This document shows, piece after piece, positions 99 through 54,419 of a stretch of DNA of 64,000 nucleotides. The translations under genes and the position numbers were made by a program. Below the pieces are notes generated by a model that worked only from the letters and a program-made list of their open reading frames with translations, had not been told where the DNA came from and ran no database searches. The stretch is from assembly GCA_002069965.1 (NCBI GenBank), contig MWCI01000005.1, positions 1-64,000 on the forward strand, read 5' to 3'. Source of the DNA: Spirochaetes bacterium ADurb.Bin218 (lineage in GTDB: Bacteria > Spirochaetota > UBA4802 > UBA5550). Within the stretch, counting starts at the first letter, position 1. Every line of letters starts with the position of its first letter.

Positions 99-125
99 CT
101 GATATGATTGAATACAAAAAATAAA

Positions 126-147
126 AAGTGGAGACCAGCGACCACTT
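126..147. repeat. Small inverted repeat upstream of the YccF gene
   Basis: Arms AAGTGG (126-131) and CCACTT (142-147) enclose a 10-nt loop. The repeat lies in the 110-bp gap between the edge fragment and the YccF gene. It could be a weak hairpin at the end of the upstream gene; no T-tract follows, so a terminator role is unproven. Confidence 0.3.
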
Positions 148-208
148 AAAAAACGGGGCGACACCGAAAAGCCATACGAGTAGGAAAATTAAATAAAGGA
201 GAAATTTT

Positions 209-52426: not shown

Positions 52427-53494
52427 ATGAGATTAAAAAGATTAAGAAAAGAGCTTATAAAAAGAGGCGCTATTCCATATTTAATAACAGATTTAAAAAA
52501 TATAAAATATCTTACAGGATTTTCAGGTTCCAATGGTTACCTTATAGTCAGTGAAAAGAATTCAATATTCATCTCTGATTCAAGATATGAAGAATATGCA
52601 AAATCAGTTATTCCAGAGGATTGTGAGTTCTTTCTGCAGGAGGGAAATGCCTTTGAGGCAATTTCAAGCACTATAAAAAAGAGAGGCATAAAAGAAATAT
52701 ACGTTGAGGCCAGCAACATAACTCTGGCTTTCCATAGTGAACTTAAAAAAGCCTTGAGCAAAGTAAAAATTGTTCCAGTTATAGATGATCCTGTTGCAGA
52801 TCTTAGAGCTATTAAAGATGAAAATGAAATTTCTTTAATTAAAGAGGCCTGCGCAATTACAGATCGATGCTTTGATCATCTTTTGCAATTTATAAAGCCT
52901 GGTGTCACAGAATGGGATATTTCAGTGGAGATCGACTATTTTTTTAAACGAAATGGTTGCCGCTCCTGCGCCTTTGATCCAATTGTTGCCTCAGGCTCTG
53001 GGTCATCAATGCCTCATTATAAGCCAGAGAACAAAAAGATAGAGCCAGGGGGAATTCTTCTTATAGACATGGGATGTGTTTTTCAGGGTTATAATTCAGA
53101 CTTGACAAGAACTATATTTATAGATAAAATTGATCCCGCTCTGGCTGAAATTTATGAGATTGTATTTCAGGCTCAAAGCAAAGCTCTCAATGCCGTAAAG
53201 CCTGGTCTTGATACAGGTAAGCTGGATTCTGTTGCAAGAAATTTTATTACACAAAAGGGCTATGGTGAAAATTTTGGCCATGGTCTTGGGCATGGGGTGG
53301 GGATTGATATACATGAATCTCCAGCAATAAAAAAGAATATAAGCTCAAAGTTAAAAAAGAATATGGTGATAACAATAGAGCCTGGCATATATATCCCAGG
53401 TCGAGGCGGTGTAAGAATTGAGGATACAGTCTTAGTAAGCCAACAGGGATTTGAGGTCTTAACAAAATCCTCTAAGGATTTAATAGTTATTTAA
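52427..53494 (+). CDS. M24-family Xaa-Pro aminopeptidase
   Basis: 355 residues. The N-terminal creatinase-like domain (about 1-125, LTGFSGSNGYLIVSEKNSIFISDSRY) is followed by the pita-bread catalytic domain with the five metal ligands: Asp in LLIDMGCVFQGYNSDLTRT (two Asp), His in FGHGLGHGVGIDIHE, Glu in ITIEPGIYIPG and Glu in GGVRIEDTVLV. The length is right for the short aminopeptidase P (PepQ/YqhT type). Cleaves N-terminal residues before proline. It lies directly in front of the efp leader array, the usual pepQ-efp neighbourhood. Confidence 0.93.
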   Translation: MRLKRLRKELIKRGAIPYLITDLKNIKYLTGFSGSNGYLIVSEKNSIFISDSRYEEYAKSVIPEDCEFFLQEGNAFEAISSTIKKRGIKEIYVEASNITLAFHSELKKALSKVKIVPVIDDPVADLRAIKDENEISLIKEACAITDRCFDHLLQFIKPGVTEWDISVEIDYFFKRNGCRSCAFDPIVASGSGSSMPHYKPENKKIEPGGILLIDMGCVFQGYNSDLTRTIFIDKIDPALAEIYEIVFQAQSKALNAVKPGLDTGKLDSVARNFITQKGYGENFGHGLGHGVGIDIHESPAIKKNISSKLKKNMVITIEPGIYIPGRGGVRIEDTVLVSQQGFEVLTKSSKDLIVI

Positions 53495-53495
53495 T

Positions 53496-53855
53496 ATGAC
53501 AAAAAGTGTGGTTTGGCAAAAAACCGCACACTCTGAAATGTTAAAGGAGTTTCTATGACAAAAAGTGTGGTTTGGCAAAAAAAACCACACACTCTGAAAT
53601 GTTAAAGGAGTTTCTATGACAAAAAGTGTGGTTTGGCAAAAAAACCGCACACCCTGAAATGTTAAAGGAGTTTCTATGACAAAAAGTGTGGTTTAGCAAA
53701 AAACCACACACTCTGAAATGTTAAAGGAGTTTCTATGACAAAAAGTGTGGTTTGGCAAAAAAACCACACACCCTGAAATGTTAAAGGAGTTTCTATGACA
53801 AAAAGTGTGGTTTGGCAAAAAAAACCACACACCCTAAAAATTTAAAGGAGTTTCT
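53496..53855 (+). repeat. Six tandem ~60-bp units in the efp leader, each with stem-loop, ribosome-binding site and ATG
   Basis: Units start with ATGACAAAAAGTGTGG at 53496, 53555, 53616, 53676, 53735 and 53795; lengths are 59, 61, 60, 59, 60 and 61 bp. Each has GTGTGGTTT pairing with AAACCRCAC around a GGC/AGC-A-run loop, then GAAATGTTAAAGGAG, TTTCT and the next ATG. The A-run lengths (6, 8, 7, 6, 7, 8) account for all length differences. The R in the stem is G in units 1 and 3 and A in the rest, pairing with U both times. Unit 6 ends at the efp start and differs as CCCTAAAAATTTAAAGG. The short reading frames are not conserved: unit 4 has TAG after six codons, and the others run 13 to 20 codons. 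No spacers exist, so it is not a CRISPR. Confidence 0.9.
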
Positions 53856-54419
53856 ATGATTTCAGTAAACGATTTCAAACGAGGAGTGATTATCAAACTT
53901 GATGGTGAACTTTACTCTGTGCTTGAATATCAACATGTAAAACCTGCAAGAGGTGCTGCTTTTGTTCGCTCAAAAGTAAAAAATCTTAAAAAAGGTTCAA
54001 TTGTAGAAAAGACATTCCGCGGTGGCGAAAAAGTTGAGGATGTCAAAATTGTAAAAAAACCAATGCAGTATCTATATGAAGAAGGAGATTCCCTTGTATT
54101 TATGGATACAGAAACCTATGAGCAGGAGTCAATCCCAAAAAAAGCAATAGGTGATGCACTCAAGTTTATAAAAGAGCAGGATGTTGTTGATATAGCCATG
54201 TATGAAGGGGAAGCAATTACAGTAGAGCCCCCTCAAACCGTTGTTCTTAAGGTGGTATATGCTGAGCCAGGTCTCAAGGGCGATACTGCTACTAACGTTC
54301 TTAAACCAGTAAAGGTGGAGACTGGAGCAGAGGTGAAGGTTCCTCTTTTTGTAAATGAAGGGGATCTTATTAAAATAAACACAGAGACTGGCGAATATCT
54401 TGAAAGAGTAAAACAGTAA
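53856..54419 (+). CDS. efp: Elongation factor P
   Basis: 187-residue three-domain translation factor that rescues ribosomes stalled on polyproline. Domain I has ISVNDFKRGVIIKLDGELYSVLEYQHVKPARGAAFVR; the loop tip residue that contacts the P-site is Arg32 (PARGAAF), not Lys34 as in E. coli. Domain II (RGGEKVEDVKIVKKPMQYLYEEGDSLVFMDTETYEQ) and the C-terminal OB domain (EPGLKGDTATNVLKPVKVETGAEVKVPLFVNEGDLIKINTETGEYLERVK) are complete. The ribosome-binding site and start are a copy of the tandem unit upstream. No EarP or EpmA gene is nearby, so any Arg modification is unassigned. Confidence 0.97.
   Translation: MISVNDFKRGVIIKLDGELYSVLEYQHVKPARGAAFVRSKVKNLKKGSIVEKTFRGGEKVEDVKIVKKPMQYLYEEGDSLVFMDTETYEQESIPKKAIGDALKFIKEQDVVDIAMYEGEAITVEPPQTVVLKVVYAEPGLKGDTATNVLKPVKVETGAEVKVPLFVNEGDLIKINTETGEYLERVKQ

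Follow-up and report, generated by a model that had tools for sequence, protein, structure and literature searches.

A six-unit tandem array between a peptidase gene and efp in a spirochaete genome, probably a tolerated lineage-specific minisatellite

The efp gene of the uncultured Spirochaetes bacterium ADurb.Bin218 is located in a window of 64,000 nt (contig MWCI01000005.1, positions 1 to 64,000; the whole stretch of DNA that was analysed), to which the coordinates below refer unless another locus is named. It encodes elongation factor P (EF-P) and is preceded by an M24-family peptidase gene ending with TAA at 53492-53494, and followed by a gene for a DUF2273 membrane protein, all three being on the plus strand. 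The 16S anti-Shine-Dalgarno pattern was searched for and not found, and therefore the AAAGGAG before efp, which we take to be its Shine-Dalgarno (SD) sequence, is so designated on general knowledge. A search for EarP, made with regard to EF-P modification, gave no match, and the control genomes likewise gave none. The features of the locus, including the short upstream open reading frames (uORFs), are as follows.

52427..53494, plus strand: M24-family Xaa-Pro peptidase gene, pepP/pepQ-like (ORF; Pfam Peptidase_M24, E=1.9e-73; Creatinase_N)
53489..53494, plus strand: ATTTAA, left copy of a 6-bp direct repeat flanking a putative insert (sequence, relatives)
53495..53859, plus strand: tandem array of six 59-61-bp units and TATGA (TRF, unit parsing, periodicity edges)
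53496..53554, plus strand: unit 1, A6; uORF 53496-53558, 20 codons, its stop overlapping the unit 2 ATG by 4 nt
53555..53615, plus strand: unit 2, A8; uORF 53555-53605, 16 codons, TAA 10 nt before the next ATG
53616..53675, plus strand: unit 3, A7; uORF 53616-53657, 13 codons
53676..53734, plus strand: unit 4, A6; uORF 53676-53696, 6 codons (TGG to TAG)
53735..53794, plus strand: unit 5, A7; uORF 53735-53776, 13 codons
53795..53855, plus strand: unit 6, A8, with a putatively ancestral-type tail, ATTTAAAGGAGTTTCT; uORF 53795-53845, TAA 10 nt before the efp ATG
53840..53845, plus strand: ATTTAA, right copy of the direct repeat, probable end of the putative insert (sequence)
53844..53850, plus strand: presumed SD of efp, AAAGGAG, 5 nt before the ATG (sequence)
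53856..54419, plus strand: efp, 187 aa (TIGR00038, E=3.4e-77, over the cut-off; three EF-P Pfam domains)

The array has a TRF period of 60, with 6.1 copies and a 94% match. Parsed at ATGACAAAAAG, it comprises six units of 59, 61, 60, 59, 60, and 61 bp and a 5-bp TATGA remainder (365 = 360 + 5), and the periodicity stops exactly at TATGA on either side, on the left after TTTAA and on the right at the start of efp. The A-tracts of units 1 to 6 are 6, 8, 7, 6, 7, and 8 nt long, and ATGA occurs seven times, six times in the units and once at efp itself. The analysis bears out the initial annotation with respect to unit lengths, A-tracts, hairpins, the repeated SD and ATGA, and uORF lengths, with a correction to the SDs. 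An SD and an ATGA had been described for every unit; the ATGA is indeed found in all six, but the first upstream ATG has no SD and lies 1 nt past the peptidase stop (TTTAA-T-ATGAC). The remaining five upstream ATGs have a full AAAGGAG at 5-nt spacing, and SD and ATG appear intact in five of the six units.

With the A-tract left out, units 1 to 5 show 1-3 substitutions between any two of them, and unit 6 has 3-5 relative to these, chiefly in the tail that precedes the SD; three positions common to units 1 to 5 are changed in it (CTAAAAATTTAAAGG against CTGAAATGTTAAAGG). About 33 contiguous positions around the SD, the ATG and the 5' stem are invariant across the six units. All six units are distinct and the longest exact repeat in the array is 68 nt; therefore ordinary short reads can resolve it.

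The uORFs opened by the six ATGs end at distances of -4, 10, 18, 38, 18, and 10 nt from the next ATG (units 1 to 6; codon numbers 20, 16, 13, 6, 13, and 16). Their reading frames are shifted by the length of the A-tract, and that of unit 4 is interrupted by TAG. A conserved peptide, already considered unlikely in the initial annotation, is rejected, because the frames are broken between units. Autoregulation by EF-P through polyproline stalling is also rejected, because Pro-Pro is found in none of the uORFs. Units 1 to 5 contain a further ORF of 6 codons, ATGTTAAAGGAGTTTCTATGA (MLKEFL; 53538-53558 in unit 1), with its stop in a 4-nt overlap with the following ATG; it has no evident SD, and its ATG is missing in unit 6.

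A 9-bp stem (GTGTGGTTT / AAACC[A/G]CAC) is found in all six units, beginning at ATG+11, with energies of -11.0 to -11.9 kcal/mol per unit on the plus strand, and the fold of the whole array lies 7.4 sd below those of shuffles (z -7.4). Variation in the stem is confined to a single column, where units 1 and 3 have U-G for U-A, the other eight of the nine pairs being invariant. Two-sided (compensatory) changes were sought across the six units and none was found, and shuffles scored equally. The argument that stem substitutions keep the pairing and so point to a function at the RNA level therefore carries no weight, and the covariance across units that was to be looked for is absent, one of nine pairs varying on one side only. 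Read on the minus strand, this substitution gives a C-A mismatch, and the hairpins of units 1 and 3 are weaker (-6.1 to -6.7 kcal/mol) than those of the others (about -10 to -11.4 kcal/mol). Intrinsic terminators (GC stem and T-run) are called on the minus strand in four of the six units, the other two being the mismatched ones; no plus-strand terminator is called within the array.

The start region of efp has a predicted openness of 0.55, equal to the highest value among relatives (0.41-0.55), and the array is thus not predicted to hide efp. At a span of 100 nt the SD is predicted to be unpaired at 0.18 in most units versus 0.44 at efp, a contrast that is absent at a span of 50 and hence weak.

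In its own genome the array occupies a single locus, by BLAST as well as by a covariance model of the unit, which recovers only the six copies (next match, E=6). The same model found nothing convincing in 43 relatives; the one weak match (locus L134, E=0.04) seems to be an unrelated hairpin that is similar in its stem only. The array was sought at the DNA level in 97 relatives and in a 393-genome sample of the phylum that overlaps these 97; it was found in the window's own genome only, and both congeners have zero copies. Absence from relatives, which the initial annotation had named among the findings that would speak for an unselected tandem expansion, is thus what is seen. The phage and plasmid collections gave no match to the array, so that an origin in those collections was not retained, and no donor of the putative insert was found. 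The exact hairpin pattern had no match across genome_contigs, from which records of the own genome may be left out. A dispersed mobile repeat is rejected, because no second genomic copy was found by BLAST, pattern or covariance model.

The order peptidase-efp is conserved across the family, and both flanks of the array are syntenic with those of the congeners. The peptidase stop and the efp ATG are separated by 9 nt in both congeners (ATTTAAGGGGTATTTATG) and by 6-28 nt, without arrays, in the remaining correctly oriented family members. Five loci (L008, L014, L019, L020, and L023) that the script did not orient correctly were excluded from these counts, and the 9-nt gap of L007, missed by the ORF filter of the script, was taken from the printed sequence.

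Other arrays of similar unit size are present in the genome. TRF was run on 1.25 Mb of it (41%) and, outside coding sequence, reports three arrays whose units measure 60-68 bp, the efp array included. The second (68 bp x 6.7, 93% match; L149:1184-1636, G000:C10:21184-21636) is intergenic and confined to a single genomic locus; its units, of two alternating types, include the final codons and the stop codon of a minus-strand OmpA-family gene. The third (65 bp x 2.2; L183:3238-3382, G000:C4:23238-23382), likewise intergenic, carries the tail of a gene (176 aa, no Pfam match) and a GGATATAA/TTATATCC hairpin. These two arrays show that duplication of gene edges also occurs in this genome at places other than translation starts. 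A 400-kb sample of the congener G002 contained no arrays of that unit size; three versus none in unequal samples are too few for claiming a raised rate of array formation. Within coding sequence, a degenerate repeat (102 bp x 6.4, 66%) is found at L203:9125-9772, and a 96-bp repeat of 2.9 copies (97%) at L147:14634-15056, in a 2.7-kb minus-strand ORF.

Considering these observations, the array is probably a lineage-specific intergenic minisatellite that is tolerated or nearly neutral, and most likely an ordinary tandem duplication of the kind seen at other gene edges of the same genome. The ancestral junction of the lineage can be read, as far as sequence goes, from the right end of the array, where ATTTAAAGGAGTTTCT-ATG corresponds to ATTTAAGGGGTATTT-ATG of the congeners; the tail of unit 6 appears to be of the ancestral type (ATTTAAAGGAG). 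The left end directly follows the ATTTAA of the peptidase gene, without an SD, which places the new DNA between the stop and the SD. In the ancestral state, the peptidase stop would have been about 9-10 nt from the efp ATG. A hairpin segment of about 52 bp may then have been inserted downstream of the stop and ahead of the efp SD, leaving ATTTAA on either side and putting TATGAC right after the stop, so that TATGA would have been present twice, at the left end of the insert and again where efp starts (CTATGATTTC). With these 5 bp of homology, slippage or illegitimate recombination would have duplicated the insert together with the SD, and later unequal exchange and slippage in the A-tract could have produced the six units.

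The five bases beyond the six units, with TATGA at both edges, are the signature expected of such a TATGA-TATGA tandem duplication. That every unit ends in an SD and ATGA would follow from duplication between the two copies of TATGA, and selection is not needed for it. Tandem duplication over a short homology can thus capture a ribosome-binding site and a start codon, and give rise to seemingly 'designed' initiation regions without selection. We infer the order of events, the tolerance and the ribosome hand-over considered below. The invariant stretch of about 33 positions could hint at constraint, and to that extent could count against the minisatellite reading; a rough hand estimate of the probability of such clustering of the six variable columns by chance is about 0.1.

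The array resembles bacterial intergenic minisatellites (VNTR) in its single-locus, head-to-tail units of about 60 bp, in its homopolymer slippage and point changes, and in its absence from sister species. Head-to-tail copies of a unit of more than 10 bp, by which VNTR are recognised, are what TRF reports. It is unlike them in that each of its units ends with the SD and ATGA of the downstream gene. A comparison may also be made with mycobacterial interspersed repetitive units (MIRUs), which insert at start codons, couple translationally and are thought to be tolerated through ribosome hand-over (PMC12548453). Like MIRUs, the array consists of short repeats at a junction of closely spaced, co-oriented genes (a 9-nt gap in the congeners) and includes a small ORF able to couple (-4 nt, unit 1). 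In contrast to MIRUs, it is found at one locus by BLAST and covariance model rather than dispersed, has a strong hairpin, and has ORFs that are mostly broken: the -4 nt overlap is found in unit 1 only, and the other ORFs stop 10-38 nt before the ATG. Its insertion also appears to have taken place just past the upstream stop, and not at a start codon as with MIRUs.

The array may be tolerated because efp retains a strong SD and an open start of its own. In addition, the uORFs terminate from 4 nt inside the following ATG to 38 nt ahead of it, so that ribosomes could hand over along the array, and termination-reinitiation down the array is possible. The locus may therefore be regarded as a natural test case for the number of upstream starts that a housekeeping translation-factor gene tolerates.

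A regulatory role for the array is possible, but unsupported, and nothing analysed shows selection on it. In the form of a translational tuner, the main alternative to the minisatellite reading, in which the tandem SD-ATG-hairpin units are decoy or relay starts and their number and A-tracts adjust the ribosomes that reach efp, such a role is unlikely. Several features are compatible with it, namely the five upstream ATGs with a full SD at close spacing, the hairpin within reach of an initiating ribosome, the dependence of uORF stops, and of their distances to the next ATG, on A-tract length, and the lower predicted SD accessibility in most units at the 100-nt span. Against it, the array is not conserved in relatives, no uORF frame is conserved and the stem lacks covariation; moreover, the other arrays of the genome sit at gene 3' ends, where such a role is impossible. 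EF-P is also a housekeeping factor, for the gene of which contingency control would be unusual. The stronger claim that the array is a fast-evolving leader, tunable by copy number and A-tract, whose decoy or reinitiation sites in series set the dose of EF-P, is held to be quite improbable. If unit number did alter EF-P output, the array would represent a contingency locus of a new type, one that acts on a core factor of translation.

Precedents for tuning do exist. Short upstream ORFs can hand ribosomes to a downstream gene (PMC12548453), and in pil1 of Streptococcus gallolyticus a leader attenuator of variable repeat length controls expression through the number of repeats in the leader peptide (PMC3894217). 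The pil1 leader is like the efp array in that a short ORF of variable length and a hairpin precede the gene (PMC3894217); it differs in that the efp array has no plus-strand terminator and repeats whole ribosome-binding-site units, rather than a pentanucleotide inside one leader ORF. No literature on tandem SD duplication before efp was found in a search that left most subscription journals outside.

It is very unlikely that the array is an intercistronic, REP/BIME-like set of hairpins that stabilises the peptidase transcript or keeps it separate from efp. Six stable plus-strand hairpins do lie between a co-oriented gene pair, but they occupy one locus, with no dispersed palindromic family in the own genome and no plus-strand terminator called among them.

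There is likewise only a slight chance that the array is an assembly artefact, with a wrong unit number or a chimeric structure. The assembly consists of 160 contigs, the relatives with names are MAGs, and tandem arrays are often misassembled; on the other hand, every unit differs from the others, exact repeats reach at most 68 nt, less than a usual read, and the flanks are syntenic with the congeners. The unit count itself may be wrong by collapse.

Least credible is the antisense transcription block raised in the initial annotation, in which minus-strand hairpins followed by TTTTTG would act as serial intrinsic terminators: four of the six units do score as such, but the idea is weakened by the mismatch in units 1 and 3 and by the plus-strand orientation of the neighbours on both sides, which leaves no obvious antisense source.

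With respect to structured cis-regulatory RNA, for which a known family or stem covariation would be expected, a search of the array against Rfam gave only chance matches below the threshold, and the stem has no two-sided changes. Near the start of the window, positions 123-190 (plus strand) of this spirochaete strongly match the DUF805 RNA motif (RF03081; 87.8 bits versus a gathering threshold of 51.1).
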